From contig NZ_LVWJ02000014.1 in assembly GCF_001625015.1 (NCBI RefSeq), positions 1,612,001 through 1,676,000 on the forward strand: a DNA stretch of 64,000 bases. Reading direction: 5' to 3'. The translations under genes were made by a program, and so were the position numbers. The notes beneath the pieces are model-generated. The model was not told the origin of the DNA. It was given only the letters and a program-made list of their open reading frames with translations, and did no database searches. This document shows, one piece after another, positions 2,086-60,713 of this stretch (the stretch's first letter is position 1; each line of letters opens with the position of its first letter). Source of the stretch: Lewinella sp. 4G2. Lineage in GTDB: Bacteria; Bacteroidota; Bacteroidia; Chitinophagales; Saprospiraceae.

Positions 2086-2102
2086 CAGCGACACATTATT
2101 AG
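2086..2102 (+). repeat. 17-bp dispersed motif, copy 1
   Basis: GCACCCGCGGCAGCGAC, one mismatch to GCACCYGCGNCAGCGCC; intergenic, between susD and the lipoprotein gene. Confidence 0.8.
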
Positions 2103-2147
2103 TCCCGCACTCAATCGGGGCGCCCACTTGAACTTGAAACCCGCCGG

Positions 2148-3077
2148 ATGAAATTCCGATTCCTCACCTTATTTACGTCCCTACTACTGATCGCCGCGTG
2201 CTCGCCGGAGGAGGTAGACGTCAATCCCGCGCCCAGCTTGCTCGGTTTTGGCGACCAGGCGGGGACGGTGGCGGTGACCGGCGACACGGCCCGGGCCAAG
2301 ATTTTGTGGACGCGCGCTACGGACCGGGAAGTGGAACTGGCCTTTGAATTGCGGGGTGATGGGGTTTCCGGAAACGACCTGGAGGTACTCACACCCAGCC
2401 CGCTACGCATCCCCGCTGGGGCGACCGAAGCCGATATTGAGCTTCGCGTAGCGCCGGGCAGCGATCCGGAGAGGCTGGAGCGATCCGGCGTGATCCAGTT
2501 ACTGGAAGGCAACTGGTACCGCCTGAGTGAGCGCGATACGTTTACCTTCAACTACTCCGTTCCGCACACCGCCGAACTGAGTTTGTGGGCCCCCGAAATT
2601 CCGTTCCCAAAACTCTGGGGCTACACCAGTTTTGGTCCGGACCCGGTGCCGGATGGCTCCTCGCTGAGTGCCGGCCGCCACTTCGCTTTTGGCCACGCGA
2701 GCACTACCCAGGCCAACGTCCTCGGCATGTTCAACACCCAGGTCGGCAAGAGCACCAACGCTCTCAACCTCCACCGCATTTATGCGGATTATGATGTTTC
2801 TTCGGCTTCCGCCAATATCCGGATTCCCAATCTATTCCGCCTGGTTCCCACATTTTTGGGCGCTGACGCAGGTGCCGTGGAGGTGATCGAACAACGGGTT
2901 ACCGTGGTGCGTAAAGCCAGCTCCGGACTCCCCCCGTTCACGATTGGCATCTCCGGTGAAGGAACGTATGACGAGACTACCGGAGCCATCTCCGTAGCCA
3001 TTTTGTTCGACGAATCCGAACTGGGCGTTACCGAACCAGTCTTGCGCCGGTACGTCTACGAATCCCAGGAACGCTAA
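2148..3077 (+). CDS. SusCD-associated surface lipoprotein of unknown function
   Basis: 309 residues with an N-terminal signal ending in LLLIAACS (lipidated Cys18 expected). Residues of roughly 25-130 read as beta-rich, with a Calx-beta-like pattern (VTGDTARAKILWTRA ... LRIPAGATEADIELRV). The rest has no family I recognise. Its place, third after susC and susD on the same strand, is that of SusE/SusF-like accessory lipoproteins, so a role in ligand binding at the surface is a reasonable inference but not shown. A copy of the dispersed 17-bp motif lies inside it at 2859-2875, and another lies just upstream in the gap after susD. Confidence 0.75.
   Translation: MKFRFLTLFTSLLLIAACSPEEVDVNPAPSLLGFGDQAGTVAVTGDTARAKILWTRATDREVELAFELRGDGVSGNDLEVLTPSPLRIPAGATEADIELRVAPGSDPERLERSGVIQLLEGNWYRLSERDTFTFNYSVPHTAELSLWAPEIPFPKLWGYTSFGPDPVPDGSSLSAGRHFAFGHASTTQANVLGMFNTQVGKSTNALNLHRIYADYDVSSASANIRIPNLFRLVPTFLGADAGAVEVIEQRVTVVRKASSGLPPFTIGISGEGTYDETTGAISVAILFDESELGVTEPVLRRYVYESQER
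2859..2875 (-). repeat. 17-bp dispersed motif, copy 2
   Basis: Exact match (Y=T, N=T), opposite to the direction of the lipoprotein gene that contains it. Confidence 0.9.
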
Positions 3078-3117
3078 CTATTAACCTTTTTATCCTCAAC
3101 CTAAATACATTCCTTAT

Positions 3118-5954: not shown

Positions 5955-7112
5955 ATGAAAACCTCCTATTTAGCCATCCTGGTTGGTGCACTCCTCGCGT
6001 CCTTACTCTGCACCTGCGGCAGCGCCACGGTGAGGAACGACGTGGAGGTGAGCGATTTGCGCGCGGCCTACGAAAAACCACCGGCGCAGTGGCCCGCACC
6101 GACGTTGGACCAGGGGGTAGAACACCGAGAATTAGGCATCCTGAAGCGGGACCAACTCGTGCCGGTGCCGGCGAGTACCCAGGAGTTGATCGCCGACCAG
6201 AAGGCGCTCGTCAAACTCGGGAAACGGTTGTTCTTCGATCCCGTGCTGTCCGAAAGTAACCAGGTAAGTTGCGGCTCCTGCCACGACCCGGATCTGGGGT
6301 GGGGGGATGGCCGTCGTCGGAGTTTTGGCCACGACCGCTCGCGTGGCTTACGCAATGCCCCAAGCCTGCTCAACGCTGGCCACTGGACGAGCCTGTTCTG
6401 GGACGGCCGCTCACCCTCCCTGGAGGAACAAGTACTCGGGCCGTTGCAGGACTCGAAAGAAATGATGTCCAACCTTGATGACTTAGGACCGGAATTAACG
6501 GCGATCCCGAGTTACGTACGAGAATTCAAAGACGCCTTTGGCGTGGCTACCATCGATGCTAAACGCGTCGCCATCGCTCTCTCCGCCTTTGAACGCACCC
6601 TGCGCAGCCGGACGAGCCGTTTCGACCACTTCGTGAATGGCCGCTACGAAGCACTGACGAACCAGGAAATTCGGGGCTTGGACCTGTTTCGGAAGAAAGC
6701 CCGCTGCCTGAATTGTCACAACGGCCCGCTGCTTTCGGACCAGCAATTTCACAATCAGGGTACCCACCTGCTGGGCCGCCCGGAAGAGGACCTGGGGCGC
6801 TTCGGGGTGACGGGCGAATGGGGAGACGCCGGGAAATTTCGGACGCCCATGCTGCGGGATATTGTGTTTACGGGGCCTTACTTCCACCACGGGAACGTCG
6901 TAGAACTGCGGGAAGTCATCCAGCTCTATAATTCAGGGATGCCGCAGGTGATCCCCCGTGGGATCCGGGAAGATGCGGAGCGCCTGCCGATTCACGACCC
7001 CTTATTGCAGCCGTTGAACCTGACAGAAGAAGAGATTGATGACCTCGTCGCCTTCATGGGCGCGATCAGTACCCGCCCAAGAGCGATGAAGATCCCCGAA
7101 GTGAAAAGATAG
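5955..7112 (+). CDS. Di-haem cytochrome-c peroxidase (CcpA/MauG family)
   Basis: 385 residues. Two c-type haem motifs are visible, CGSCH at residues 106-110 and CLNCH at 251-255, in the spacing of bacterial di-haem peroxidases, with family signatures such as LFFDPVLS, NAPSLLN and FRTPMLRDI. These enzymes act in the periplasm and reduce hydrogen peroxide with electrons from small cytochromes or, in MauG relatives, oxidise partner proteins. A hydrophobic export signal ends near LLASLLCTC, so the protein may be lipid-anchored. A copy of the 17-bp motif (6010-6026) encodes CTCGSA exactly at the end of this signal. The gene converges with the M23 peptidase gene, leaving 9 bases between stop codons. 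Confidence 0.92.
   Translation: MKTSYLAILVGALLASLLCTCGSATVRNDVEVSDLRAAYEKPPAQWPAPTLDQGVEHRELGILKRDQLVPVPASTQELIADQKALVKLGKRLFFDPVLSESNQVSCGSCHDPDLGWGDGRRRSFGHDRSRGLRNAPSLLNAGHWTSLFWDGRSPSLEEQVLGPLQDSKEMMSNLDDLGPELTAIPSYVREFKDAFGVATIDAKRVAIALSAFERTLRSRTSRFDHFVNGRYEALTNQEIRGLDLFRKKARCLNCHNGPLLSDQQFHNQGTHLLGRPEEDLGRFGVTGEWGDAGKFRTPMLRDIVFTGPYFHHGNVVELREVIQLYNSGMPQVIPRGIREDAERLPIHDPLLQPLNLTEEEIDDLVAFMGAISTRPRAMKIPEVKR
6010..6026 (+). repeat. 17-bp dispersed motif, copy 3
   Basis: Exact match (Y=T, N=G), at the signal-peptide end of the di-haem peroxidase. Confidence 0.9.
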
Positions 7113-12795: not shown

Positions 12796-14697
12796 ATGCG
12801 TAATCGACCCGTCCTTTCCTACAGCCTATTGTTGCTTGCTCTCTTCCTGGGCACCTGCGCCAGCGCCCAAACGGAGGATAAGCGAGCGGACCTGTCCCTC
12901 CTAGGTAAACGGCTAAGTAAGGAAGTGCCCGGATCCGACGCCGCCGCGGCCGTGCTCGATACCATCCGGCAAGTGAGTGAAGAACTGGGTACGGACTTCA
13001 GCAAGGCCTACTACCTCGAGCAGCGCGTGATCGCTAACCAGCACAAAATGGACACCGCAGAAATGCGGCAGATCCTGGAGGAAGCGCTTGCGCTCTACGA
13101 AAAGGATGCCGACGACTCCGGCCGTGCCCGTGTATATGGCCGCCTGGGTTACGTGGGGTTCCGCAGCCGCAACTACCTCATGGTGTACGAGATGGCCGCC
13201 GAACAACTCAAAGCCGCTAAACTGGCTAAGGACGATCAGCAGATCGGTACGGCCCTGGGAAATCTGGGGCTCTCCAGCAAATTGATCGGCAATAAACCGC
13301 AAGCCCGGCGCTACTACCTGGAAAGCATCGAACACGCCAAGCGTACCAGTGATACGATCTCTATGGTAAAAAGCTACCACAACCTTGGCAATCTGCACCC
13401 GGGGAAAGACCCGGCACAGATCGATAGCTCCTTAATGTACGGTAAACTGGCTACCGACCTGTTGCTGGTTTTCAACCCAAACGACCACGATATGCTCGCC
13501 CGCCGCTACGGGGCTGACGGAAGAGCATACATCAGACGTGGCGACCTCGTTCGGGGCCGCGAGATGATTGAGCGCTCACTTGAAATGTACCGAAAAGCGG
13601 GTGACCCGCTGTACGTTTTTGGCGAAACCCACTATCTCGGTCGGGTGAACCGTAAACTAGGCAATCTGAAGGAAGCCGGCCGCTTACTATTTGATGCGGC
13701 GGAGCAGTTAAAGAGCGTCCCACGAGCAGACCCGAGCTATTTGTACTCGGAACTCGGGCTATACTACCGAGAAATTGAGCAAGCTGATAGCACGGCAAAG
13801 TACATGGGGATGTACGCTGATGCCATCAGGGATCAGAGCAAGGACAAACAGGCTGCCAAAATCGCCTCCCTCGAGACCAAATTCCGCACCCAGGAGCAAC
13901 GCGCCGAAATCGAACGCCTCGCCCTGGAGGATGAGCTGAACGAAGTGCGCATCACTCGCCAGCGCCAGTGGCTTGTACTCGCCGGCCTGGCCGTCATCCT
14001 CATCAGTCTGTTGGCCTACCGCCTCCTGCGGCAACGCAAGCGGATCGCGGCCCAGAACGACCAGATCTCCCTCGCCCTGGGGCAAAAGGAAATGCTCATC
14101 CGGGAGATCCATCACCGGGTGAAGAACAACCTCCAACTCGTTTCCAGCTTGCTCTCCCTGCAGAGCCGTTACCTGGAAGACGAAGGGGCCGTAGCTGCCC
14201 TTAAAATGGGTAACAGCCGGGTGCGAAGCATGGCGCTCATTCACCAGCGGCTGTATCTCGAAGATGAGGTGAACACCCGCGTCAACGCCAAGGATTACTT
14301 CGAAAAGCTGGCCGACGAACTGGTCGGCAACCTCTCCGGGCCGGGCCGGGACCTCTCCCTCTCCGTTCGCGTCGAGAACCTCGATCTCGACATCGACACC
14401 ATCATCCCCCTTGGCCTCATCGCCAACGAGTTACTGACGAACGCGCTGAAGTACGCCTGGGCCGAAGGGCAACCGGGCCATTTGGTCCTGGCGCTGTCGC
14501 AGGTGCCGGGTGAGGACCAACTCCGCCTCATCGTTGAGGATGACGGCGTAGGGATTAAGGGTGACCCGGTAGAGAACCCGTCATCCTTCGGCTATTTATT
14601 GATCAGTAGCCTGGTGGGGCAACTGGAAGGAAAGATCGAGGTGAATAGTGAGGGTGGGGGGACGAGCGTAGTGGTGACGGCGCCGCGAGCGGTTTGA
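12796..14697 (+). CDS. TPR-containing sensor histidine kinase (HisKA_2 / HATPase_c)
   Basis: 633 residues. A signal peptide (to about residue 24) is followed by tetratricopeptide-like helical repeats (about 80-350), a coiled coil (about 355-390), one membrane helix (about 391-412) and a cytoplasmic kinase module. The HisKA_2 dimerisation box REIHHRVKNNLQLVSSLLSLQ starts near residue 436, with the phospho-His at 439 or 440, and the ATP-binding N-box NELLTNALKYA and G-box DDGVGI follow. The family commonly phosphorylates stand-alone or LuxR-type regulators, here the gene just upstream, and the periplasmic TPRs probably bind a protein signal. Two copies of the 17-bp motif are in this gene, one encoding GTCASA at the end of the signal peptide and one near the catalytic domain. 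Confidence 0.93.
   Translation: MRNRPVLSYSLLLLALFLGTCASAQTEDKRADLSLLGKRLSKEVPGSDAAAAVLDTIRQVSEELGTDFSKAYYLEQRVIANQHKMDTAEMRQILEEALALYEKDADDSGRARVYGRLGYVGFRSRNYLMVYEMAAEQLKAAKLAKDDQQIGTALGNLGLSSKLIGNKPQARRYYLESIEHAKRTSDTISMVKSYHNLGNLHPGKDPAQIDSSLMYGKLATDLLLVFNPNDHDMLARRYGADGRAYIRRGDLVRGREMIERSLEMYRKAGDPLYVFGETHYLGRVNRKLGNLKEAGRLLFDAAEQLKSVPRADPSYLYSELGLYYREIEQADSTAKYMGMYADAIRDQSKDKQAAKIASLETKFRTQEQRAEIERLALEDELNEVRITRQRQWLVLAGLAVILISLLAYRLLRQRKRIAAQNDQISLALGQKEMLIREIHHRVKNNLQLVSSLLSLQSRYLEDEGAVAALKMGNSRVRSMALIHQRLYLEDEVNTRVNAKDYFEKLADELVGNLSGPGRDLSLSVRVENLDLDIDTIIPLGLIANELLTNALKYAWAEGQPGHLVLALSQVPGEDQLRLIVEDDGVGIKGDPVENPSSFGYLLISSLVGQLEGKIEVNSEGGGTSVVVTAPRAV
12851..12867 (+). repeat. 17-bp dispersed motif, copy 4
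   Basis: Exact match (Y=T, N=C), at the signal-peptide end of the sensor kinase. Confidence 0.9.
14490..14506 (-). repeat. 17-bp dispersed motif, copy 5
   Basis: Exact match (Y=T, N=A), antisense within the kinase ATPase domain, encoding LALSQVP. Confidence 0.9.
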
Positions 14698-15027: not shown

Positions 15028-18000
15028 ATGAAACAGCTTAACCATTCACGGTTTGGGAATAGGATCATCTACAGTTTAGTGATTCTACTGGCGGCGGCGG
15101 GGCTCTTTGCCGGCGTTTTGGAGGAATCTGTTAAGGGTGGCGTCCTCGAGTTAGGGACCGAATTAAACGTGAGCGCTGAGCCGAGCTCAATGCAATCCTT
15201 AGCTACAGAGAGTGCCAGGTTGGGTGGGCCCAATTTGGCTACTCATGCTTTTGGCGAAGACGGCGAGAACGTAACCGTTGCCGAAGAAGCCATGTGCGTC
15301 CCCCTGATTGTACTGGCTCCTACGCTATTAGTGGATGGGATATGCGCCCTCAGCACCACCCCCCTCGAAGGCCTCGCCCTCAACGTTGAGGACACCATCA
15401 CCGGGGGAACCTTCACCTTCACTACCCAAAGGATCGACGGTGCCACGATGATAGCCGACGCGCCGGTGATAAACGCCACCTCGATCGACGGCACCCAGTT
15501 TAACCAGGGAGATTCCGTGGTCGTCACCGTTGCCTACGACGGCACGAACGCGATGACCGCCGATGGAATGATGGCCTGTGATACTACAATCGAGTACCGC
15601 CTCATCGTCGATAACGCATTTTGTGGCTGTGACCTGGCGATTGCCGACGTGCAGAGCGTCTGTACTTTCTCTACCGCCGATCAGCGTTCCACCTACGAGC
15701 TTACCGTGGAAGTTACCGCTGATGCCATTCTGGAAGGGGAGACCGTCAACCTTATTGTCGACGACGTACTCGTCGCTTCCGCCTCACTGACTTCCGGTAG
15801 CCTCACCTTTACCGACGTGCCCATCGATAACTTGCCGGGACTGGACATTAACGTAAAAGTTGCCCTCGATGACAACCCCGCCTGTGAATTTGAGCGCTTC
15901 ATCGACCTCGTCGGCTGCTCCGGCCTTTGCGCTAACGCAACGGGTAGCAACGTAGTCGGTGGCCAGGTCTTCATTGACGACGACCTGGACGGAGAGCTGG
16001 ACGGTAATGAAACAGGGCCTGGTTTGATCCGCATCCGAATCTACGACTGCAATGATAACTTGGTCCTGACGGACTTTACCGACGGGCAGGGCAACTGGTT
16101 CGTAAACACCCTCGATGCGGGTGAACAGTACCGCGTCGAGTTCGATACCCCCAGAAACCCTGAATTGGAAAGCTCCCTGAGTGGCCCCGACAATGGTTCC
16201 GAAGTGCAATTCATCACCGTCCCTACGCCAGACGGCGACGGTAATATCCGGGAATGTGGCATCAACTACGGCCTGACCAATCCCGCCCTTTACTGTCAGG
16301 ATAACCCCTTGCTGCTGACTCCCTGTTACTACGTGGGTAACCAGAACCGCAGCAGCCCCGCCCTGATCGGCGTCTACTACGATGAGCCCGGAGGCACCAA
16401 CCCCGAAAAGTTTGGCCTGCTCGCCGCCGAAGAGATTGGTACTACCTGGGGCGTAGCCTACCAACGCGATGAACGCAAGATCTACCTCGCCAGCGTCGTG
16501 CGTAACTATATGGACTACGGCCCCTTCGGCTTCGAGGCCATCTACGTCAGCGACTTCACGGACCCCGCCGGGGATACGGGCGCCGACCCCACGGTCTCCG
16601 CTCCTGGACGCATTTTGCTAGAAACGGACCTGGGTATTGATCTGGGTACGGACCCCCGCTCGGTTGCCATCACTTCTGACGGCAGCAACCCCTTTTTCGA
16701 CAATGCCTACCTCGGCGTAGGTAAGGCCGGTATTGGCGATATCGACATTTCCGACGATGGGAATACGCTGTATGTCACCAACCTGAACGAGGCGGCGCGT
16801 AGCCTGGTCCGCATCGATGTAAGTGATCCCGACAACCCCACGCTAATCGACGAGATCGCCATCCCCAACCCCGGTTGTTCGGGCACGAATGACTTTGCGC
16901 CCTGGGCGATTAAGTATTACCAGGGTGAGGTTTACGTCGGCGTTACGTGTACGGCGGAAGACACGGGGAACCCAGCGGATATGTCCGCCACCGTTTACCG
17001 TTTTGACGGCACCACTTTCACCAGCATTGCGTCCGCCCCGCTTGATTACCAGCGTGGAGCGGCGACTTACCGGAGCAACGGTACGTTTGCCTCCGCCAAT
17101 TGGCAGCCCTGGTCCAACACCTGGGACCCGGAGCAGTTGCCGCTACCTAGTAATCCAAATAGCCGGCCACGTAGGGACTTGGTCAGCCAGCCGATGCCTA
17201 TTCTTCAGGATATTGAGTTTGGTGATGATGGCTCTTTGTACTTCAGTATCGGCGACCGCTTCAGTTTTATGGCGGCTTTTCTTCAACGGGAGTGGGGCAC
17301 CACGGGCGGCGAAGTCTACACACCGGTAGCCGCTGGAGATCTCCTCCGATTCTGCGATGAAGGGGGGACTTACGTTGTGGAAGGCTCCGGCTCCTGCCCA
17401 CAACCGGTTACGGATGCAGCCTCTCAGCAGATATCGGCCATTCCGGTGACTAACGAGTTTTTCGACGATAACTACATCAACCAATTCAACCCCCGGGCCG
17501 GCCACTCCGAGGCCTTACTTGGAGGGGTCACCACCGTTCCTGGGCGTAGTCAATTGGTGACCATTGCCTTTGACCCCATCGCCAATCGGGGGCCAGTCAA
17601 TACTAGCGGTATTCGCTTTTACAACAATGACGGAAGCGTCAGCAAAGGGCTCGTGATCGTGCCCAGCAACGCCATTTCCAACAACGCAAAGGGCGGTAGC
17701 CTGGGTGACCTGGAAGCACTCTGTGATCCGGGCCCCATCGAGTTAGGCAACTACGTTTGGTTTGATTTGGACGGCGACGGTGCCCAGGACCCCTGCGAGC
17801 CTCCGGTTGCCGGCGTAATGATGAAACTATTCCGCAAGGACGATGCCGGCGTTACCCAATTGGCCACCACCACCACGAATGCCCTCGGTAACTACTCTTT
17901 CGTCGGTGATGGCCAGGACAACGCGACTTGGTCGGGCGCTGGCGCGGGTGCCAGGGTAAGTAGTACGGAGCAGTATTTCATCGCCGCCTGTGGCGATAGC

Positions 18001-28447: not shown

Positions 28448-28521
28448 AGCTAAACCCGCTAATTGAAACGGACCCCGTATTGTTGCTTGCTGCTTGAATG
28501 AACTTGATCATAATCGTCCCC

Positions 28522-40469: not shown

Positions 40470-41954
<1,485 letters not shown>

Positions 41955-46295: not shown

Positions 46296-49200
46296 TTAAT
46301 CCCTCCGGTCAGTCACCGACTGTTTCGCGGCCTTCTCGGTATTGCGTGGCACTTTGCTTTCCTGGCGGGCGGTCTTGCGCTCATTCTTCCACCGTGAACG
46401 AAGTGCCTTCCACTCTTCGAGTTCCCCCCGTTTTTTGTAGTACTTCCTGCGACTAAGGAGAAAACCAGTTTTCGGTTTGTCTGCCTGTGGGTCCTCCTCT
46501 TCCATCTTCATAGTAAGGTAGACTTTCCATCCCGCGTGGGCGTAGCCCTCTTTGGGCGGTGCTTCATCCAGGACACCCCGGAATAGATTAGACCATACCG
46601 GCACGGAAACCAGCAGGTCGGGCCCATCCGCCAGGCTGTACTGTCCTTCCAGGAACAGTTGCAGGGCAGTGGTTTGAATTTCCATTCGTGGTATAGGCAA
46701 GACGCCGTGATTCATTTCCAGGTAGCCAGAGAGTGGAGCCAGACCTAAACGCTCGAAGCGGCGTTGCATTTTCGCTTTCTTGCCCACCTCCAGTAGTTGT
46801 GGCCAATCCGTAAGGACGATGTTCTGCAGGTCATAATTCAGGGTAGCCGTCGTGCTATCGAAAATCACCTGTTGGATGCGCTCATTCAGCCAGCCATTCA
46901 TTTCTCCGTGAAGGTTGAGCCTGCCGGAGATTTCTCCTATTTGCTTTTTGACCTCAGGGTTAACTTTTGCGAATTCGCCGACCAATTGGTCCAGGTCGAT
47001 GTTTTCGATGCGGTAATTGGCGTGAAAGGGAGATACGGCCAGGCTGTCGAGCGCGTAGACCGCGTCGATCTCCACCTTGCCATCGTCGATGAGGAAGCCG
47101 GTGCGTTCCAGCACAAGTTCATTATTGTTACGGACGCGCATGCCCGTGGCTAAATCCAAGAGCGTTGTGCGGGGGGAAAGAATGAAGGTGTCCACCTCTA
47201 GGCTCAGTTCGGGGCGGAAAGAGTTGAATACCCCACCGGTGGTCGACAGTACCTGCTTTAAGCTACTGGCCTTAGTCACCGTATCCGTTACTGTTTCGGT
47301 ACCAGCGATGGAGTTCAAAGAATCCACCACGATACTATCGGTACTTGACGTAAAGTTGTCCCGCTGCGATTGGATGAGGCTGAGCAGATCCGGGTAACTC
47401 AAGGCGTCCGCACGAATGTCGGCTTTTACGTGGAAGGGAGCTGTGGCCTCAATGGTGTCCGGGAACATGAAAGCTGCCAGCTGATCCAGGTAACCATCTA
47501 GCCGGATGGTACGGTTGGTGGAGTCGGTAACGAGTTTCAGAGAGTAATCCGCCCGTTCTTCGGCAATCTTTACGTCGAAGTGGCGCACGGGAATGTAGAC
47601 CTGCCCGGGCCGGTAGAGAATTCTGCTGCTGTCGATGGAGAGGTCCATACGACCAGTTTTCAGTAGGGCGGGGAGGTCTTCCGGGGTGCCGTCCAAATCC
47701 AGGTCGATGGCAAAGCGGCCTTCCCCAAAGAAGAAGTTCTCGGCGGCGAAGAGTACGTTGACGACCTGGGGGTCACCGTTGAGGTGGAACTTGGTCTGGA
47801 TGCTACCGTCCGTTTCGCTGGGTTCGTACTGGAGGGTGCCGGAAAACAGTTCGTCCCGCCCGTCGTCAAACAGGAGCCGGCCGTAGTTGTAGCCACCCAC
47901 GATACCAATGGAGTCGGCGATGCGGCCCCGGTGCTGGAAATCGATGTGTAGATCGGAGGGGAGTGTCTCCAACTCTTTGGGGAGAGCTACGCCGAAGTAG
48001 TCCAGACTATTCCGCAGCCGGTTGAGGTTGAGGTGCTGGGCCACGAACTCCACGTCGAAGGGGGTAACGCTCGGCTCATTCATGTCCAAACGAGCGGCGA
48101 ATTGAATGTCGCTGCCGGACCAATCAAAGGAGGTTTTCTCCAGCCGCAGGGTGTCCTCGACGAAATGGAGGCCGGTCGTAAAGTCCGTGAGGGTGAATAC
48201 GTCGTAGTACTTCACGGTATCAAACTTCATGCTGAAGTTGGGGTGGAAGGCTTTCTCGATACCCATCAGCGAGGCTTTCATGGCGGCTACCTGTTGGGCT
48301 TCCGTCAGCGTATCCAGTGGTGGGCGGCCGTCCGGACCGTACTCGCCCACTTCCCCGGCACCTGCGGCAGCGCCCTTATTCTTTTTGGGAGCGGGGCCGT
48401 CGGTGAACACGAGTTCTTCATCGTCAGAAACGAGGCGGCCGTCTTCGCCGAACAGGGCCCGGAAGTCGCGCCAGTCAAAGCGCTCGGTGTGGAAGTTTAC
48501 GTCCGTGGTAATGCGCTGAGCGGGCTGGTCCATGAGCAGCGGCACGATGTTGTCGATCTTGCCGTTGAGGTCAAAACTGAAGCCGGTGCGTAGGGGGCGG
48601 CTGACGATGCCGTAACGAATATCCTGGCCATCCTTGACCGTACGGATCGCCCGGAAAGGGAAACTGATACCGGCCGGGCCGTAGAAAACTTCGGTGTTGT
48701 AAAAGGCGATCTCCCCGTCCGTAGTCTGAATGATCTCCTCAAAATCGAGGAGCGAAGCATTGACGCCAGCCTTAAGCCGAAACTTACCCCGTTTGAAGAA
48801 AAATGCATCGTTGCGCAGGTAGTCACTCACGGCACGGGCCGGCCCGGAGATGTCCAGGTTAGCGCGTAGAATGGCATCACGGCCCGGAATCCTGACGTCG
48901 ACCCTATCGGTTTCAATGAGGACGTTGCCGAGGTAATAAGCCTTCACATTTTTGGCGCGCACGCGCAGGTTGCGGGGGCTATTGGGAATGCCTCCCTCCG
49001 CCGGAGAAAGCCGATTGATGAGCGTGCCGGTAGCGTAAACCTTGTCGAATTGGTGTTCCTTTAGGCGGACGTCCTGGCCGGACATCACGTAGTCGATTTC
49101 AAGGCGCGGGTCGTTTCCCGGGCCAAGGGGCGTAGCGATGGAAACGTGGGCGGGGAAGGCGCCCGTAACCGTATAGTCCGCCAGTTTTTCCTGAAGTTCC

Positions 49201-50072
49201 TCCGGTAGAATGGATTGCGCCGTGGCGTAATCAATTGCCTCGGAAGACACGTCGATGTAGGAGGTATCCGTCTTTTCCTTGTGGATCTCCGCGGCTAGCC
49301 GGAGATCCATACCCGCCACCGACAGGTTCGCCGGGTGCAGTGTAATGACTTCTTCCCCAAGAACTACGTCCAACGGCCCACTCAGATCCTTACCGCGCAG
49401 GTAACTTCCCTTGTCGGTGTTGAAGGCGAGGTCCGTGAAGTGGAAATCGACGTTGGCGTCGACGCACAATTCTCGCTCCTCATTTCGATCCACTACCGCA
49501 CTGAGGGACCTGGCCAGCACCTCGATGTTTTTCCGCTTTTTGGGGTGGATGAACTTGAGGTTGACGTTGTCGAGTGCAGCCGTCAGCCCCTCCCAATCCA
49601 CGCTGATGTAGTTGGGTTGGACGGCATCTTTTAGCGTATCCAGCTTGGTTTTAACCGTGTCTCGATCCGCCAGGTAACCCAGGTTGAAGACGCCGGCGGA
49701 GTCACTTTCCAGGTGCACTTGGGCATCGATCATCCGTATCTCTTGGATGCGAATGCGGCCGGCCAGCAGGTTGTCCAGATCAACCTTTGCCCGGATACGC
49801 TGGGCGTTGATGAGTTCCGGCACCCGCGTAGCCTGCGTGGTGTCGCGCACGACGAGGCTGTCGACGGTAAGGCGTACTTCGGGCCAATCCTTCCAGATCT
49901 CGAGGCGGACTTCGCGTAAGGAAACGGACATCCCCTTCGTCGCCAGGTACTCATGAAGCAACTTCTCCTGGTTGGACTCGAGGTAGTCGTTGGCGTACCA
50001 CAGCGCCACCCCGGCCCCGATGAAGAGCAGGAGCCAGAAAACCAGGAAGATGCGCAGTAGCTTCTTGAGCAT
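46296..50072 (-). CDS. AsmA-family giant membrane-anchored protein
   Basis: 1,258 residues. One membrane helix (about 5-28, LLRIFLVFWLLLFIGAGVALWYA) is followed by a long periplasmic region of repeating beta-strand pattern, with the AsmA-type start (VSLREVRLEIWKDWPEVRLTVDSLVVRD) and AsmA_2-like C-terminal segments (about 980-1150, LDLATGMRVRNNNELVLERTGFLIDDGKVEIDAVYALD). The last 80 residues are strongly basic. AsmA-like proteins such as TamB and YhdP form lipid-carrying bridges or affect outer-membrane assembly. A 17-bp motif copy encodes GAAAGAG in a Gly/Ala-rich loop near residue 570. A tract of heptamers lies in its promoter region. Confidence 0.88.
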   Translation of the reverse strand: MLKKLLRIFLVFWLLLFIGAGVALWYANDYLESNQEKLLHEYLATKGMSVSLREVRLEIWKDWPEVRLTVDSLVVRDTTQATRVPELINAQRIRAKVDLDNLLAGRIRIQEIRMIDAQVHLESDSAGVFNLGYLADRDTVKTKLDTLKDAVQPNYISVDWEGLTAALDNVNLKFIHPKKRKNIEVLARSLSAVVDRNEERELCVDANVDFHFTDLAFNTDKGSYLRGKDLSGPLDVVLGEEVITLHPANLSVAGMDLRLAAEIHKEKTDTSYIDVSSEAIDYATAQSILPEELQEKLADYTVTGAFPAHVSIATPLGPGNDPRLEIDYVMSGQDVRLKEHQFDKVYATGTLINRLSPAEGGIPNSPRNLRVRAKNVKAYYLGNVLIETDRVDVRIPGRDAILRANLDISGPARAVSDYLRNDAFFFKRGKFRLKAGVNASLLDFEEIIQTTDGEIAFYNTEVFYGPAGISFPFRAIRTVKDGQDIRYGIVSRPLRTGFSFDLNGKIDNIVPLLMDQPAQRITTDVNFHTERFDWRDFRALFGEDGRLVSDDEELVFTDGPAPKKNKGAAAGAGEVGEYGPDGRPPLDTLTEAQQVAAMKASLMGIEKAFHPNFSMKFDTVKYYDVFTLTDFTTGLHFVEDTLRLEKTSFDWSGSDIQFAARLDMNEPSVTPFDVEFVAQHLNLNRLRNSLDYFGVALPKELETLPSDLHIDFQHRGRIADSIGIVGGYNYGRLLFDDGRDELFSGTLQYEPSETDGSIQTKFHLNGDPQVVNVLFAAENFFFGEGRFAIDLDLDGTPEDLPALLKTGRMDLSIDSSRILYRPGQVYIPVRHFDVKIAEERADYSLKLVTDSTNRTIRLDGYLDQLAAFMFPDTIEATAPFHVKADIRADALSYPDLLSLIQSQRDNFTSSTDSIVVDSLNSIAGTETVTDTVTKASSLKQVLSTTGGVFNSFRPELSLEVDTFILSPRTTLLDLATGMRVRNNNELVLERTGFLIDDGKVEIDAVYALDSLAVSPFHANYRIENIDLDQLVGEFAKVNPEVKKQIGEISGRLNLHGEMNGWLNERIQQVIFDSTTATLNYDLQNIVLTDWPQLLEVGKKAKMQRRFERLGLAPLSGYLEMNHGVLPIPRMEIQTTALQLFLEGQYSLADGPDLLVSVPVWSNLFRGVLDEAPPKEGYAHAGWKVYLTMKMEEEDPQADKPKTGFLLSRRKYYKKRGELEEWKALRSRWKNERKTARQESKVPRNTEKAAKQSVTDRRD
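48358..48374 (+). repeat. 17-bp dispersed motif, copy 13
   Basis: Exact match (Y=T, N=G), antisense in the AsmA-like gene, whose strand reads GAAAGA. Confidence 0.9.
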
Positions 50073-50445: not shown

Positions 50446-53274
50446 TCAGCGACCCTTACCCGCAACTACCAAGCGCCCGGCGCCACCGGTCCAGACAAAG
50501 ATGTAGCCACCGAGGGGTAGTCCCGACAGGTCAAGCATTCCATCCGTACCCAGCCGGTGACGCCCGTAGTCACGGCCCCGGAAATCGAGCAGTTGTACCA
50601 CCGTTCCTTCCGGTAAGCCCCGCAACCAGGTTTGGCCACGCGCTGGGTTAGGCGTTGCCAGTACGGATTCAGCCAGGGCGGCTACCTCCACCCAGGGGGA
50701 GTAGCTCGTGCTGCCATCCAGATCTTCCTGGCGTAAGCGATAGCGCAGGTCTCCAGGGGGTACGGTTTCATCCCTGGTTGCGTAGCGACCGTCCAATCGG
50801 GCGGCAACAAATCCGGCCTGCGCCAGCCCCGTTGGGCTCATTCGTTCCACGTAGAAGCCGGCGTTGTCGGTTTCATTCGTCGTTTCCCAGTTCAGTAGTA
50901 CGTCCGCTTTCTCCCGCTCCGCCGTAAAGCTGAGGTAGCGGACTGGCAACGTGGCCCCACCAATCGTATTCGTCGCTTGCAGATCTATTAGTTCCACCGG
51001 CGAAAGGGCGCGGTTCCAGATGGTTACCTCGTCCAGAAGTCCGTTGAAGGGGCGGTCGCCGGCGTCCGTTGGTTGGTTACCGAGGGCTACGGCAACGTTG
51101 GGCGCCTGGGCAACCCGTCCGGTTTGGGCCATGCTGGCTACTTCGGTGCCGTCCACGTAGAGCCGCATTTGCGCGCCGTCGTAGGTGGCCGCTACGAAGG
51201 TCCACTCCTCGGCTCGCAACTGTCCGGTGGGGCTGGCCAGAGTGGCCGTGGTGGTTTGCGCGTCGGTCTTCAAACGGAAGCGTACGCCGGTCGTGCTGAT
51301 CTGGCTCAGCATCCAGTAGTGCTGGTTGCCGGTCACGCCGTCGGCTTTGGAAATGAAGCGCCCTTCGGCCGTCGTCAGGGCGGTCGGGCGCACCCAGGCG
51401 GCGAGAGTTAGTCCGGCGGCGTCCACATCGATGGCGGGTAGTTCAACGCGTTCGGTCGCTACGTCGAGGGCGCCACCAAATTGGCCGTCCGCGGGCCGCC
51501 AGTTGTCGGCGGTGGTGAGGGTGCCATCCTGCCCGGCAACGAGTTCGGGTACGTTCGTGCCGGCAGTTTCGTCCAGCGGCCAGTAGGCAACCTGGGCCTG
51601 GCCGGGGTCCACAACGGTGATAATGACGACGTCCGTCGCTTGTTCGGCTTCGTCGCTTACGGCCAGTTCGAATTCGTAGCGGCCAGCCTCCGTTGGGGTG
51701 AACTGGGCGGTGGCCGTAGTCGCGTTCAGAATGGTAGTGGCCGGCCCGTCAAATTGCGTCCAGGCGTAGTTCAGGGTGGCGTCATCGAGGTCGGTACTCT
51801 CACTGCCGTCCAGCGTCACGGTGGTATTGATATTTACGGTTCGGTCCTCCCCGGCGCGGGCGATCGGCGGGAAATTTCCGTTCTGGGCGATGTTATAGTT
51901 CGCGCTGTTCACCGGGCCCGGCGCGGCATTCTGGGCGCTGGCGCGGGTGCGCAGTAAAGTGGAAGAAGCCAGGGTAAAGGGCCCCGTATACAAAGTGGAT
52001 GTGCCGTCCGGTTCGGACCCATCCGTGGTGTACCGAATGTCCTCCACCAAGCCCGTCGCGGAAAGGGTGACGGTCACCGGAGCGGTAAAATTCCCACCCT
52101 GTGGGGCGATGGATACTTCCCCGGCGCGGGGGAGGGTAGAAGTCGTGTTGTAGTACACGACCGGACGGCCGTTGTAAAAGCGGGGCGCACCAGCTACGTC
52201 GAGGTCGCCATCACCGTCGAGGTCCGCGACGTCACCCAGGTAAAGTTTGCCACCCGGATCGTAATTGGTTTCGGTGAAGTTGCCCTCCCCGTCGTTGACG
52301 AATACGTAGCAGCCGTTGGAACCAAAACTGCGGCCGAGGAAGATGTCGAGGTCACCGTCGTTGTCTACGTCACCAAGGTCGGCGAAGTGGGCGTCCCCAG
52401 TATCATCGCGGAGGATGCGGGTGACGTAGTTGACGCTACCGTCCGGATTGAGCCCGGTGTTTTCGTGCCAGGCGAGGTACTGGACGGAGCCTTCGGCCGT
52501 GCCCATGTAGACGTCCGCATCGCCGTCGCCGTCCAGATCACCGATGGCGGCTTTGACTTTGCCGAAGACGCCCGTCAGGTTGGGGTCGATGGAGTAGGTG
52601 ATCGGTACGCCGGTTTGGGCCCGCCAGTCGTCGGATTTCCAGTAGATGCCGGAGAGGACGATCTCCACGCCGGGTTCACCGTCCAGGTCGCCGACGGCCA
52701 GGCCTTCGTCGCGGCCGGCGTCGTTATCGCCGAGGATCTTCGCCGTCCAGTTGTTGATGTCGGCATTTTGGAAGTAGATCATGACCCGCTGGTCCGTCCA
52801 GGTGCGGGTAACGACGTCGAGCCGGCCGTCGCCATCCACGTCGATGACGACCATATCGTTCTGGTGGCTGACGTTGCCGGTGTACATGGTGATGCGCGTC
52901 CAGGGGGCGTAGACGTCGCCATCGGGTCCGGGATTCAGATAGAGGTAAGTGTTCCCCGGCCCGGAGTTGCGGGCGCCGTCGGAGGTCACCAAGTCGGGCC
53001 AGCCGTCGTTATTTATGTCGGCGGCTTCGGCGGCGTAGGGCCCGCCGGCGGAGGTCCCCATCTGGTATTCGGTGGTAAAATCCGGCCCGGCGTACCAGTA
53101 CTGGTTGCCGCCACAGGCGAAGAGATCGACGTTGCCGTCTCCATCAAAATCGGCTACGGCCACGTCGGCGGTGGCTCGTCCGAAGGCGGTAGGTCCGGTA
53201 AAAGTAATTTGGGCGTGAGCGGGTAGGCTGGCGAGCAAGATCCAGCTGAAGGCGAAGACGAGAAAGCGAAGCAT
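50446..53274 (-). CDS. T9SS-exported FG-GAP/VCBS, PKD and LamG domain protein
   Basis: 942 residues. A signal peptide (MLRFLVFAFSWILLASLPAHA) is followed by FG-GAP/VCBS propeller repeats (about 25-370; many DxDGDGxxD calcium loops such as VADFDGDGNVDLF and IGDLDGDGDADVY). Next come a chitobiase C-terminal-like segment (about 385-460, IRYTTDGSEPDGTSTLY), a PKD domain (about 470-555), a LamG/concanavalin-type domain (about 565-770, VAYWPLDETAG ... LDEVTIWNRALSP) and a T9SS sorting domain (about 865-942, ATPNPARGQTWLRG ... GGYIFVWTGGAGRLVVAGKGR). It is probably a surface or released carbohydrate-binding protein. A 17-bp motif copy encodes TRASAQ within the chitobiase-like segment. Confidence 0.9.
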   Translation of the reverse strand: MLRFLVFAFSWILLASLPAHAQITFTGPTAFGRATADVAVADFDGDGNVDLFACGGNQYWYAGPDFTTEYQMGTSAGGPYAAEAADINNDGWPDLVTSDGARNSGPGNTYLYLNPGPDGDVYAPWTRITMYTGNVSHQNDMVVIDVDGDGRLDVVTRTWTDQRVMIYFQNADINNWTAKILGDNDAGRDEGLAVGDLDGEPGVEIVLSGIYWKSDDWRAQTGVPITYSIDPNLTGVFGKVKAAIGDLDGDGDADVYMGTAEGSVQYLAWHENTGLNPDGSVNYVTRILRDDTGDAHFADLGDVDNDGDLDIFLGRSFGSNGCYVFVNDGEGNFTETNYDPGGKLYLGDVADLDGDGDLDVAGAPRFYNGRPVVYYNTTSTLPRAGEVSIAPQGGNFTAPVTVTLSATGLVEDIRYTTDGSEPDGTSTLYTGPFTLASSTLLRTRASAQNAAPGPVNSANYNIAQNGNFPPIARAGEDRTVNINTTVTLDGSESTDLDDATLNYAWTQFDGPATTILNATTATAQFTPTEAGRYEFELAVSDEAEQATDVVIITVVDPGQAQVAYWPLDETAGTNVPELVAGQDGTLTTADNWRPADGQFGGALDVATERVELPAIDVDAAGLTLAAWVRPTALTTAEGRFISKADGVTGNQHYWMLSQISTTGVRFRLKTDAQTTTATLASPTGQLRAEEWTFVAATYDGAQMRLYVDGTEVASMAQTGRVAQAPNVAVALGNQPTDAGDRPFNGLLDEVTIWNRALSPVELIDLQATNTIGGATLPVRYLSFTAEREKADVLLNWETTNETDNAGFYVERMSPTGLAQAGFVAARLDGRYATRDETVPPGDLRYRLRQEDLDGSTSYSPWVEVAALAESVLATPNPARGQTWLRGLPEGTVVQLLDFRGRDYGRHRLGTDGMLDLSGLPLGGYIFVWTGGAGRLVVAGKGR
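51934..51950 (-). repeat. 17-bp dispersed motif, copy 14
   Basis: Exact match (Y=C, N=C), sense to the FG-GAP/LamG gene, encoding RTRASA. Confidence 0.9.
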
Positions 53275-54324: not shown

Positions 54325-55308
54325 ATGAAGAACTTTTTGCTGCGCAGGAGGGCTACTTTTGATCCGCCGCGGTTCCAGGGGTGGGGGCGGGAGCGCAGTT
54401 ATTTTGAGGGGTGGTACTTCAAGGTGGTCGTCCCGCAGGAGGAGATTGCTTATGCGTTTATTCCGGGCATCAGTTACGACGCGGCGGGGGAGGGACATGC
54501 TTTTTTGCAGGTATTGAACGGGGCGGCGGCAACGTCGGAATACCATCGCTATCCAGTGAGCGATTTTAAGCCGGCGGCAGAGGAGTTTGCTTTGAGTTTG
54601 GGCCCGCACCGATTTAGTTCCGATACTTTATTTATTGATCTTCCGGGCCTGCAATTCGATATCAATTTAATTAATCCTATTCCCTGGGAGGCGCGACCGC
54701 TCGCACCGGGGATTATGGGTTGGTACGGCTTCGTGCCGCGGATGCAGTGCTACCACGGGCTGGTAAGTTTCCACCACGAGTTGTCCGGAACAATTACGGT
54801 AAATAATAAAAAATATTCCGCTGCCGGGGGGGTGGGGTATACCGAAAAAGATTGGGGTAGCGGCTTCCCCGATGCCTGGGTCTGGTGCCAGTCCAACCAT
54901 TTATCGGGCACCAACGGGCCGGCGTGTTTGATGGCCAGCGTAGCGAGTATTCCCTGGTTGGGGACGTCCTTCACCGGCTTTCTCGCGACGTTTTATTTGG
55001 AGGGTGAACTCCACCTTTTTACCACTTGGGCGCAGTCGCAGGTGCAGTGTAAGTTGGACGGGGAGGCGGGGACCGTTAGCCTCACCTTTATCAAACCGGG
55101 GAAGCGCTTGCACATCACGGGCACCCCCGCCGCGGGAGGTGAGTTGGCCAGCCCCATCACCGCGGGAGGGATGACGGGCAAGATCAACGAATCCCTCCGG
55201 GCCGAATTGGACGTCCGGTTGGAAGTAAAGGGCGAATTAGTCTACGCCGGTACCGCCACCTGGGCCGGGCTCGAGGTGTCGGACAATGCGGCCATCTTGA
55301 CTTCCTAA
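54325..55308 (+). CDS. Tocopherol-cyclase-like family protein
   Basis: 327 residues from ATG 54325; an ATG 18 codons upstream lies in a Cys-rich stretch without similarity. Family signatures are FQGWGRERSYFEGWYFKVVVPQ near the start and GVGYTEKDWGSGFPDAWVWCQSNHL in the middle, both typical of the tocopherol cyclase / hydroxyneurosporene-dehydrogenase-like beta-barrel fold. Plant and cyanobacterial members close the chromanol ring of vitamin E; bacterial homologues in non-photosynthetic lineages are uncharacterised, and no other tocopherol gene is present. A role in lipid or quinone chemistry is only a guess. Base use differs from its neighbours, with long T- and G-rich runs. Confidence 0.82.
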   Translation: MKNFLLRRRATFDPPRFQGWGRERSYFEGWYFKVVVPQEEIAYAFIPGISYDAAGEGHAFLQVLNGAAATSEYHRYPVSDFKPAAEEFALSLGPHRFSSDTLFIDLPGLQFDINLINPIPWEARPLAPGIMGWYGFVPRMQCYHGLVSFHHELSGTITVNNKKYSAAGGVGYTEKDWGSGFPDAWVWCQSNHLSGTNGPACLMASVASIPWLGTSFTGFLATFYLEGELHLFTTWAQSQVQCKLDGEAGTVSLTFIKPGKRLHITGTPAAGGELASPITAGGMTGKINESLRAELDVRLEVKGELVYAGTATWAGLEVSDNAAILTS

Positions 55309-55364: not shown

Positions 55365-55483
55365 GGTTACGGGCTTTGTCCCGTCTATTCCTTTGTTGAC
55401 CAATCCGTTACGTTGGAGGGCCAAATTTATTAGCGGTGGAATCCTGGGATTGGAGTTGCCCATTTTTACTTGCCCATTTTATG

Positions 55484-55500
55484 GTACCTGCGGCAGCGCC
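55484..55500 (+). repeat. 17-bp dispersed motif, copy 15
   Basis: GTACCTGCGGCAGCGCC, one mismatch at position 2; intergenic, before the GH3 gene. Confidence 0.85.
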
Positions 55501-55577
55501 CAAACACCCCACCCAACAATGGGTTATACCAGCAACCAACCCAGCCCTACGCGGCCCCATCTACCCAAATCAGAACA

Positions 55578-57107
55578 ATGGCTTTTTACGGACAACTCAT
55601 CAAAACCATCCTGGAAGCGAAGCACGCTTTGCTGCCCCACGAACCGTCGGACCCCACGGCGGCGCAGGAGGACCAGCTGCGGGACTTGCTCGATACAGCC
55701 AAGGACACCGCGTTCGGCAAGTACTACAACTTCGCGGGATTGCTGGAAAAAGAGGACGTGCGCAAGGCCTACCGCAAAGCCGTGCCGATCTTTGACTACC
55801 ACAAGATGAACGCCTCGTGGTGGAAGCAGCAGCGCCGTAACCCGGACATCACCTGGCCCGGCAGCCCCGACTTTTTTGCCCTCAGCAGTGGCACGACGGG
55901 GAAGAAGAGTAAGCGGATACCCGTCACCGACGAGATGCTGGCTTGCACCCAACGCGTAGGCCGCGCCCAGGCGGAGTGCCTCGCTAATTTTGAACTACCG
56001 GCGGACCTATTTGAGAAGGACATCCTGATGCTCACCAGCTCGGCCGACCTCGACGAGAAGGACGGCTGGCAGGAAGGGGAGATCAGCGGCATCAACGTGA
56101 GTAACATGCCGGACTTCATGGAGGCCGTCTACAAACCCGGTATCGAGATCGCTCAGATTGATAACTGGGACGAGCGGGTGCAACGCATCGCCGAAGAGGC
56201 ACCGAACTGGGACGTTGGCGCCCTCGCCGGCATCCCCAGTTGGATCGTGATGATGTTGCGCAAGGTGATCGAAGTCAATAAGCTGAACAACATCCACGAA
56301 ATTTGGCCCAGCCTGCAGATCTACACGACGGGCGGCGTGGCCTTCGAACCCTACCGCAAGAGTTTTGAAGCGCTGCTGGACCATCCGATCATCATCATGG
56401 ATACCTACCTGGCCAGCGAAGGCTTCTTCGCCTTCAACGCCCGCCCGGGCACCATGGCGATGGAACTTGCCCTCGACCACGGGATGTACTTCGAGTTCAT
56501 CCCCCACGACGAAACGGGCTTCGACGCCACCGGCCAGCTGCTGGACAAACCTAAAGTGGTCGACTACCGCGACGTGGAAGAAAACAAGGACTACGCCCTG
56601 CTCATCTCCACCCCCGCCGGCGCCTGGCGCTACATGATCGGCGATACGATCAAGTTTACGAATAAGGAAAAGATGGAGATCGTCATCACCGGCCGGACGA
56701 AGTACTGGCTCAACGTGGTCGGCTCCCAGCTCAGCGAAGAGAAACTCAACGCCGCCGTCGCCGCCCTCAACGAACAGACCGACAGTGAGATCAAGGAATT
56801 CACCGTCGGCGCCGTCCCTACCGAGGACGGAAACGACTACTACCACCAGTGGATCCTCGGCGTCAATAAGGAAGGCCTCGCTGCCGACCGGGCCCGGGAC
56901 ATCCTGGACGAGCACCTGCAATCCGTCAACAAGAACTACAAAGTGGCGCGGGAAAAGGCACTGAAGGGCGTCCGCGTCAAGGTCACCGCCGCCAATAAAC
57001 TCTACGATTTCCTCGAGCAAAAGAAGAACAAGAAGGGCGGGCAGATCAAGTTCCCGAAGGTGATGACGGCGGATGACCTGGAGCAGTTGCTGGACTTCCT
57101 GGACTGA
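55578..57107 (+). CDS. GH3-family acyl-adenylate/amido synthetase-like protein
   Basis: 509 residues from ATG 55578 (MAFYGQLIKT); the frame is open to 55470 but that segment overlaps a motif copy and lacks similarity. GH3 features include the phosphate-binding motif FALSSGTTGKKSKRIPVT (about 95-112), a middle YTTGGVAFEPYRKSF and the hinge region WRYMIGDTIKFTNKEKMEIVITGRTKYWLNVVGSQLSEEKL. Plant GH3 proteins activate auxin or jasmonate and couple them to amino acids; bacterial members are mostly uncharacterised but should likewise activate a carboxylic acid with ATP. No pathway neighbour identifies the substrate. Confidence 0.9.
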   Translation: MAFYGQLIKTILEAKHALLPHEPSDPTAAQEDQLRDLLDTAKDTAFGKYYNFAGLLEKEDVRKAYRKAVPIFDYHKMNASWWKQQRRNPDITWPGSPDFFALSSGTTGKKSKRIPVTDEMLACTQRVGRAQAECLANFELPADLFEKDILMLTSSADLDEKDGWQEGEISGINVSNMPDFMEAVYKPGIEIAQIDNWDERVQRIAEEAPNWDVGALAGIPSWIVMMLRKVIEVNKLNNIHEIWPSLQIYTTGGVAFEPYRKSFEALLDHPIIIMDTYLASEGFFAFNARPGTMAMELALDHGMYFEFIPHDETGFDATGQLLDKPKVVDYRDVEENKDYALLISTPAGAWRYMIGDTIKFTNKEKMEIVITGRTKYWLNVVGSQLSEEKLNAAVAALNEQTDSEIKEFTVGAVPTEDGNDYYHQWILGVNKEGLAADRARDILDEHLQSVNKNYKVAREKALKGVRVKVTAANKLYDFLEQKKNKKGGQIKFPKVMTADDLEQLLDFLD

Positions 57108-60191: not shown

Positions 60192-60226
60192 TCCCCACCC
60201 CCGGCCCCTGCCCGAGGGGGAGGGGA
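60192..60226 (+). terminator. GC-rich hairpin after sucA
   Basis: TCCCCACCCCC (60192-60202) pairs with GGGGGAGGGGA (60216-60226) with one A-A mismatch; no T run follows, so termination strength is uncertain. Confidence 0.55.
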
Positions 60227-60242
60227 GTATGCTCGCTCAAAA

Positions 60243-60713
60243 ATGTATACTGCTTGGATTGCATCAATGCAATGTCAATCGTATCGTAGTGCTGCATTGG
60301 GCGCTGGCGCGGGTGCTGTGTGGATGGGATTGAACGTAGCGCTCAGCATTAGTAATACCATTAATTGGGTAATACCGATCGTGTCGTTAGTCGTACCCGT
60401 TAGGCAAGCAATGAGGACAATCAACAACCGGGATTGGTCACTGATTTTCGTAATGCTAGCGGTAGTCTGCTGGTTAGTTGGTGTGTTGACGATGGCGTCA
60501 CCCTACTTCTCTAAGGAGGCGGAGGCTACGTGGCGAAATGTTTCCCAAATTGGAATGGTTGCTTGTATGGTGGTGGCTGCCTATCTATTGTTTTTGGCGG
60601 GGCGGGAGCGTGCGCTTGGGGTTGGCGCTTTGATGATTTTGTATGTTTTTATTTGGTTGGGGGTAGCCTCTTGGGTTTGGATGTTTTGGTTGTTGGGGAG
60701 TGTGTTTGGTTAG
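60243..60713 (+). CDS. Small multi-pass membrane protein of unknown function
   Basis: 156 residues with about four hydrophobic helices (near 29-50, 67-87, 100-117 and 126-150). No family recognised. Met28 (60324) before GLNVALSISNTINWVIPIV is an alternative start; with it, the 17-bp motif at 60300-60316 would lie in the leader instead of encoding GAGAGA. Base composition is lower in GC than sucA, and codon use differs, so the gene may be acquired or weakly expressed. Confidence 0.6.
   Translation: MYTAWIASMQCQSYRSAALGAGAGAVWMGLNVALSISNTINWVIPIVSLVVPVRQAMRTINNRDWSLIFVMLAVVCWLVGVLTMASPYFSKEAEATWRNVSQIGMVACMVVAAYLLFLAGRERALGVGALMILYVFIWLGVASWVWMFWLLGSVFG
60300..60316 (-). repeat. 17-bp dispersed motif, copy 16
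   Basis: Exact match (Y=C, N=C), at the start of the small membrane protein gene. Confidence 0.9.

Follow-up and report, generated by a model that had tools for sequence, protein, structure and literature searches.

In the literature surveyed, DNA uptake sequences are described from the Pasteurellaceae and Neisseriaceae, and Haemophilus and Neisseria both use type IV pili. The uptake signal sequence (USS) of Haemophilus is present in hundreds to thousands of copies on both strands and is accompanied by mismatched forms (PMC7811141, PMC1939737), and in the Pasteurellaceae such sequences are biased to gene ends (PMC2346458). Biased uptake together with recombination is held to build these signals in Haemophilus and Neisseria (PMC1939737, PMC7811141). 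The spacing of the DNA uptake sequence (DUS) matches conversion-tract length (PMC2397512), DUS dialects of the Neisseriaceae broadly follow phylogeny and can alter the encoded residue (PMC3630211), and with single-stranded DUS one strand transforms gonococci better than the other (PMC12061091, citing Duffin and Seifert, 2012). Among the Bacteroidota, Riemerella prefers its own DNA (PMC7965970) and requires for transformation ComEC, DprA, an HHH protein and a DUF1343 protein, plus further unfamiliar proteins (PMC8459023), but no uptake sequence is described in the sections of these two articles surveyed here. Here we analyze a 17-bp motif, GCACCYGCGNCAGCGCC, that recurs throughout a 64-kb stretch of DNA (the window; C14:1612001-1676000) from the 5.21-Mb, 21-contig genome of a Neolewinella (Saprospiria). 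On balance, this motif is probably the core of a genus-wide, DUS-like tag that is spread by transformation-linked drive. Among the best matches listed from the open-access literature (subscription papers and preprints lay outside the search), no description of the motif or of any Bacteroidota uptake sequence was found, and one spelling of the motif, searched by its letters, did not occur in that literature.

The window contains 14 exact copies and three copies with one mismatch (pattern count), eight on the plus and nine on the minus strand, which together span positions 2076-60316. The initial annotation, in which the motif was first noticed, had the number of exact matches right but listed only two mismatched copies, gave eight per strand and placed the first copy at 2086, 10 bases away from its actual start at 2076. 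Its claim that a chance origin is nearly impossible is upheld by 100 dinucleotide shuffles of the window, none of which yielded a match, and by a Markov expectation of 0.0004 (order 5) to 0.07 (order 7) copies. The whole genome holds 888 exact 17-mers (443/445 per strand), while the pattern read backwards is not found at all. In 1.26 Mb of this genome, 218 exact copies stand against expectations of 0.01, 0.94, and 13.8 for Markov orders 5, 7, and 8, respectively; a copy number far above such expectation is also characteristic of DUS and USS. A genome-wide count close to the Markov expectation, or absence from relatives, had been named beforehand as a possible refutation, and neither was encountered. 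Moreover, copies with no, one and two mismatches in 464 kb number 75, 24 and 9, respectively (control: 0, 1 and 6), a decay series that is expected if mutations are continually restored or replaced. The earlier observation is thus confirmed as real, and the phenomenon is larger than first reported.

The 17-mer is embedded in an asymmetric element of approximately 38 bp, which consists of a pyrimidine tract, the core and a terminal C-A-A-A-T. It carries 35 bits over 36 measured positions, of which 27 reside in the core, 6 upstream and 2 downstream. The upstream flank (-16 to -2) is rich in pyrimidines, with C at -4 in 90% and TT at -7/-6 in about 60% of the sites on contig C14; downstream, 77% of these sites have C at +17, followed by A/T up to +21. 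The statement that flanking bases are not conserved was therefore wrong, and although the 17-bp core described at first stands, it had been overlooked that the element extends over ~38 bp, varies in dialect and is spaced by strand. The site logo is graded and has no sharp boundary. USS of Haemophilus and the Pasteurellaceae likewise combine a core with weaker flanks over some 30 bp and are biased to gene ends (PMC2346458), but the Neolewinella element, with its G+C-rich core and pyrimidine tract in a member of the Bacteroidota, is unrelated to them in sequence. A position weight matrix (PWM; site threshold >18 bits, reversed sequence as control) recovers 208 sites from C14 (864 kb searched) and 94 from contig C11 (399 kb searched), with none in the reversed sequence, which corresponds to about 240 sites per Mb of the window's genome. 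By matrix search, 114 sites were obtained for the congener G019 (control 4), 130 for G005 (control 0), and 105 for G006 (control 0).

The spacing of these sites depends on their strand. Pair counts across five data sets with 651 sites, compared with the expectation from random placement, give 48 same-strand pairs closer than 3 kb where 250 are expected, whereas opposite-strand pairs at this distance (259 observed, 252 expected) are as frequent as random placement predicts. Same-strand pairs climb from 0.05 of expectation below 500 bp, through 0.19-0.25 at 1.5-2.5 kb, to approximately 1 above 4.5 kb, so that the relaxation falls between ~2.5 and 4.5 kb. Of 164 neighbors less than 2 kb apart in four data sets, 151 are in opposite orientation. 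When strands were shuffled over fixed positions in 2000 rounds, no round had as few same-strand pairs as observed in any bin up to 3 kb for the matrix sites, and between none and two rounds did so for the exact-pattern sites; little or nothing of the effect is left at 3-4 kb (135/2000 and 1551/2000). The G006 data, fetched after the effect had been seen, contain no same-strand pair below 1.5 kb against 20 expected. Along each strand the sites are also spaced more evenly than random (coefficient of variation, CV, 0.42-0.60). Each strand is thus an independent track with an exclusion length of 2.5-4 kb. In the open-access literature surveyed, no report of such strand-autonomous spacing of DUS or USS was found. 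Opposite-strand pairs below 500 bp are in excess (79 against 42 expected), and 60 of them point outward and 19 inward. This outward excess is only a hint of directionality; sites that lie no more than 150 nt from the start of a gene are themselves biased to the sense orientation (85 sense, 16 antisense in the five data sets). Nine inverted pairs closer than 160 bp occur in 864 kb, none of them in a convergent gap, and only six of the 79 pairs below 500 bp have both sites in such a gap. Pairs that form intrinsic terminators would be expected downstream of genes and chiefly where these converge; a role as intrinsic terminator was rejected, because most close pairs are located within genes or in gaps of the divergent or tandem kind.

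Among 100 relatives, the exact motif exceeds its control only within the genus, with a single match outside. A survey of 21 Neolewinella genomes with the relaxed pattern GCACCNGCGNCNNCGCC (controls: 0-18) gave 140-1,407 copies in 18 of them, including G005 (1,407), G006 (1,133), G014 (1,017) and the window's genome (998); the motif-poor members are G001 (5), G011 (6), and G007 (29). In 296 sampled genomes of the phylum, searched with a slightly narrower pattern, the top count outside the genus was 9 and the top control 8, so that counts in these genomes do not clearly exceed background. The matches listed from a scan of genome contigs include Neolewinella lacunae, litorea, antarctica, agarilytica, persica, and aurantiaca, and each listed record other than the named Neolewinella had a single match. 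Three of these records are contigs (L139, L190, and L197) of the Bacteroidia metagenome-assembled genome (MAG) Co_bin.246 with one exact match each, which may represent another motif-bearing lineage; one Saprospiraceae MAG is also among the single-match records listed. The viral-contig records listed show one match each, that is, no accumulation of the motif in phages.

Dialects of the element lie at core positions 11-12. Position 11 is A in 92% of the C14 sites of the window's genome, but C in 86% of the sites in G019, 96% in G005, and 86% in G006. Type counts vary by lineage, and some genomes (G012 and G017) have a majority of neither A-type nor CR-type sites. The Neisseriaceae likewise use dialects among related species, some of which change the encoded residue (PMC3630211), and the Neolewinella dialects are in broad agreement with a tree of ComEC (19 of the 21 genomes; a single gene with long branches and a midpoint root). 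This tree pairs G001 with G007 as sister genomes within a clade that has full support and otherwise consists of motif-bearing members, and G011 forms a long outer branch; we infer early presence of the element and later loss in G001/G007 as the simplest history. Other over-represented short repeats were encountered as well, namely palindromes of the GGAGCTCCAG type in G001 (stretches L021-L023), the CTAGTTCCTAG type in G014 (L035-L036), and the GCCTACCGCCTA type in G019 (L037-L039), which may be different repeat families.

Comparison of orthologs indicates how the sites arose. In 70 reciprocal-best-hit pairs with at least 45% identity (65 to G005, 5 to G019), no gap is present in the partner at 25 of 27 sites that fall inside alignments (counted from both sides), and six more sites lie outside the aligned part. 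Like DUS and USS, the sites in coding and intergenic DNA arose in place, without insertion. Five sites are homologous between species, and four of these differ at position 11 according to dialect, as in a codon that reads CAG (Gln) in one species and CCG (Pro) in the other. As sites were created and respelled in place, even with a change of amino acid, selection or drive on DNA appears to act at them; the sequence comparison thus points to the DNA level. The initial annotation had offered two readings, an undescribed DNA signal present throughout the genome and a very short repeat that spreads. Copy number, genus distribution, strand balance and DNA-level conservation favor the signal, whereas the repeat fits poorly with aligned sites that derive mostly from existing codons without insertion and with the graded logo.

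Within the window, the sites are distributed as follows (coordinates refer to the 17-bp core; conserved flanks reach ~16 bp upstream and 5 bp downstream; ORF, open reading frame):

2076-2092, plus strand: site with one mismatch, intergenic, PWM score 28.9 bits
2859-2875, minus strand: exact site, antisense within ORF 2148-3077, found by pattern and PWM
6010-6026, plus strand: exact site, sense, N-terminal region of the di-haem cytochrome c peroxidase ORF 5955-7112
12851-12867, plus strand: exact site, sense, N-terminal region of the histidine kinase ORF 12796-14697
14490-14506, minus strand: exact site, antisense near the 3' end of the same histidine kinase ORF
17935-17951, minus strand: exact site, antisense in the giant ORF 15028-23307
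20500-20516, plus strand: exact site, sense in the giant ORF 15028-23307
28080-28096, plus strand: exact site, sense, C-terminal tail of the ribonucleotide reductase ORF 25671-28202, beyond the Pfam domains
28768-28784, minus strand: exact site, antisense in the giant ORF 28498-37239
32056-32072, minus strand: exact site, antisense in the giant ORF 28498-37239
38767-38783, plus strand: exact site, antisense in the TonB plug-domain ORF 38567-39310 (minus strand)
40446-40462, minus strand: exact site, intergenic, between the divergent ORFs 39362-40378 (minus) and 40548-41954 (plus, RtcB)
48358-48374, plus strand: exact site, antisense in the AsmA-like ORF 46296-50072 (minus strand; AsmA match under the Pfam cut-off), PWM score 43.0, the best in the window
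51934-51950, minus strand: exact site, sense in the FG-GAP/laminin-G ORF 50446-53274 (minus strand)
55029-55045, minus strand: site with one mismatch, antisense in ORF 54325-55308
55484-55500, plus strand: site with one mismatch, near the start of ORF 55470-57107
60300-60316, minus strand: exact site in a stretch without a gene according to the codon-based caller, overlapping the small ORF 60243-60713 (no Pfam match)

Two of these sites likely encode the ends of signal peptides, as judged from the translations. The giant ORFs 15028-23307 (2,759 amino acids) and 28498-37239 (2,913 amino acids) hold two sites each. At the low-G+C end of the window (0.466), the adjacent ORFs 61271-62290 and 62590-63609, of 339 amino acids each and with the same type IX sorting domain at residues 264-327, look like a tandem duplicate.

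Genes were placed with a home-made caller that probably misses short genes, so that the intergenic shares given here are probably inflated. Of 161 sites in the window's genome, 101 are coding, 58 intergenic and 2 on edges, the intergenic share being 36% of sites versus 18% of DNA (44% versus 16% in G019). The first tenth of the gene holds 30 of the 101 coding sites, and 9 of 44 in G019. All three sense frames (0, 1, and 2) are represented among the coding sites, but of the antisense frames only 0 and 2; none of 40 antisense coding sites uses frame 1, in which TGN would fall in frame. The earlier view that copies occur in several coding frames and between genes, and that protein similarity cannot account for them, holds true, and a protein-level explanation was rejected on these grounds. 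The 100-kb bins counted, which cover 864 kb of C14 as well as 440 kb of G019, all have nearly balanced strands and give no sign of replication polarity, origin and terminus not having been located. Occurrence on both strands without replication polarity is shared with DUS and USS, and the absence of a chromosome-wide orientation bias, like high copy number and mismatched forms, recalls the Haemophilus and Pasteurellaceae USS in particular (PMC7811141, PMC1939737). Sites are rarer in 13 windows below 50% G+C (0.108 per kb versus 0.205-0.292 per kb), which might reflect an avoidance of mobile DNA. However, of six proteins checked in two site-poor stretches, three have surface or type IX secretion domains, one is AAA helicase-like and none is clearly mobile. 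A 28-kb site-free stretch of C14 (~1463123-1491183) contains genes for an SprB/cohesin-type surface protein and for PorP/SprF.

ComEC is encoded in all 21 genomes of the genus, and DprA, a ComEA-like HHH_3 protein and DUF1343/NamZ in 20 each, the sole miss of each being the 55%-complete G010. These generic competence genes correspond to the ComEC, DprA, HHH and DUF1343 proteins of Riemerella (PMC8459023). The ComEA-like HHH gene of the window's genome (C11, L098:2130-3467) itself carries a site, C11:263021-263037, beside the HHH repeats. Of the Riemerella set, the search covered ComEC, DprA, the HHH protein, DUF1343 and DUF5689; the last of these, a surface protein, was not seen in any Neolewinella that bears the motif. 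The secretin PF00263 was not found in any of the 21 genomes, and the pilus ATPase PF00437 yielded partial matches only (19-25 bits over 24-84 of 370 positions). Most of these matches are in long frames, and we read them as P-loop fragments of other ATPases. By these two families no type IV pilus uptake machine is apparent in the 21 genomes, pilins and other pilus genes not having been searched; such a machine is common to the Neisseria and Haemophilus cases but is not part of the functional definition of DUS and USS. The element thus differs from USS in the lack of a secretin and of a full-length pilus ATPase among the genes found, and in its ~3 kb same-strand exclusion. From DUS it differs in sequence, phylum, machinery and the strand-autonomous spacing, and a counterpart of the pilin receptor ComP was looked for only as far as PF00437 and PF00263 reach. 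The gonococcal strand preference is nevertheless a precedent for a strand effect (PMC12061091).

We therefore regard the element as a putative member of the DUS/USS class that would work in a similar way, its role in uptake being suggested by analogy. In a competence system that resembles that of Riemerella and operates without type IV pili, a receptor at the surface or in the periplasm might prefer fragments bearing the ~38-bp element; the fragment would enter as a single strand via ComEC, and DprA and RecA would assist in its recombination. Biased uptake and recombination, acting as molecular drive, could turn permissive spots into sites and hold them near the consensus. A 35-bit signal present at about 1,000 places on both strands, in permissive sequence and with lineage-specific spelling, matches the product ascribed to this process in Haemophilus and Neisseria (PMC1939737, PMC7811141). 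Judging by the strand-specific spacing, each site may act on a single strand, or in a single direction, across ~3 kb. Any further site on that strand within such a tract would be redundant, but an opposite-strand site would not, and tag orientation may accordingly set which strand is imported or recombined over this distance.

Several observations weigh against this interpretation. The motif-poor G001, G007, and G011 have the competence genes just as the other genomes do, and no gene that tracks the motif was found among those examined in the 21 genomes. DUF5689 occurs in none of the motif-bearing genomes, and among the 21 only the motif-poor G011 has it; there, three DUF5689 copies share one 708-amino-acid frame (G011:C115:8691-10592, L264-L266). 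Next to ComEC and next to the HHH gene, no obvious receptor was seen. Matches to PF00437 are marginally over the curated cut-off in 11 of 21 genomes. The exclusion is leaky in G005, which contributes 9 of the 11 same-strand pairs below 1.5 kb in the first four data sets. Finally, Haemophilus uptake is independent of the orientation of the sequence (PMC1939737), and the strand-specific exclusion is therefore not explained by the Haemophilus precedent.

Among the analogs named in the initial annotation, DNA uptake sequences come closest; Chi, HIP1 and segregation motifs agree poorly with an element that is asymmetric, far too long and, in the DNA examined, without polarity. HIP1 of cyanobacteria is also a short DNA motif over-represented genome-wide, but it is a palindromic octamer according to a reference title in PMC1939737, whereas the Neolewinella element is asymmetric. 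Chi-like and chromosome-organizing roles are judged less likely than a role in uptake because of the length of the element, the missing polarity, the dialect change and the apparent lineage loss.

Chi sites comprise 5-8 bases, are replication-polar, are read on one strand and act over a kilobase range. A Chi-like signal, which an AddAB/RecBCD-type enzyme would read on one strand from one side and which would alter its activity over a few kilobases, is an unlikely alternative, even though ~3 kb of strand-specific exclusion suits a polar enzyme for which same-strand neighbors are redundant, and ~240 sites per Mb lie within the range of Chi density in Escherichia coli. Against such a signal stand the 35 bits over ~38 bp and the lack of polarity in the 100-kb bins. 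In addition, near absence from G001 and G007 within a motif-bearing clade would be odd for a repair signal, and weak selection on single sites would probably not suffice to keep some 1,000 of them at 35 bits.

A signal for chromosome organization, recognized by a nucleoid or partition protein that tolerates one same-strand site per ~3 kb, is to be doubted slightly more. The genome-wide occurrence and the even per-strand spacing would be in line with it, but dialect change and apparent lineage loss are not; the clustering of opposite-strand sites below 500 bp speaks against simple even spacing, and segregation motifs such as the FtsK-orienting polar sequences (KOPS) differ from the element by their strand polarity between origin and terminus, of which the DNA examined shows none.

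Still less probable is that same-strand exclusion is a by-product, with close direct copies being lost by deletion and the element itself having any of the above functions. Direct repeats can indeed delete intervening DNA and inverted repeats cannot. Deletion between repeats of 17-30 bp, however, should drop quickly with distance, whereas the exclusion is almost as strong at 1.5-2.5 kb as below 500 bp. Finally, a selfish short repeat akin to miniature inverted-repeat transposable elements (MITEs) or repetitive extragenic palindromes (REPs) and copying into new places, for which high copy number and restriction to the genus could be adduced, is very improbable, as the gap-free ortholog alignments led us to reject an insertion element, the element is not palindromic and its logo has no sharp ends, and insertions are not expected to produce strand-specific exclusion.

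That the element marks an independent lineage of self-DNA tags in the Bacteroidota, operating without type IV pili and with each tag governing one strand over ~3 kb, is a bolder proposition, which we put forward only tentatively. If true, the orientation of a tag would decide which strand enters or recombines, and the two strands of the chromosome would be tagged as two independent tracks. Strand-autonomous spacing would then be a genome-level readout of the imported strand and of the length of the recombining tract. A third, unrelated case of uptake tags, in a phylum without the type IV pilus machine, would show that such tags evolved repeatedly. The unlike dialects, together with the motif-poor G001 and G007, should make the receptor findable by comparative genomics, and adding the tag to DNA could help to make these marine bacteria transformable.

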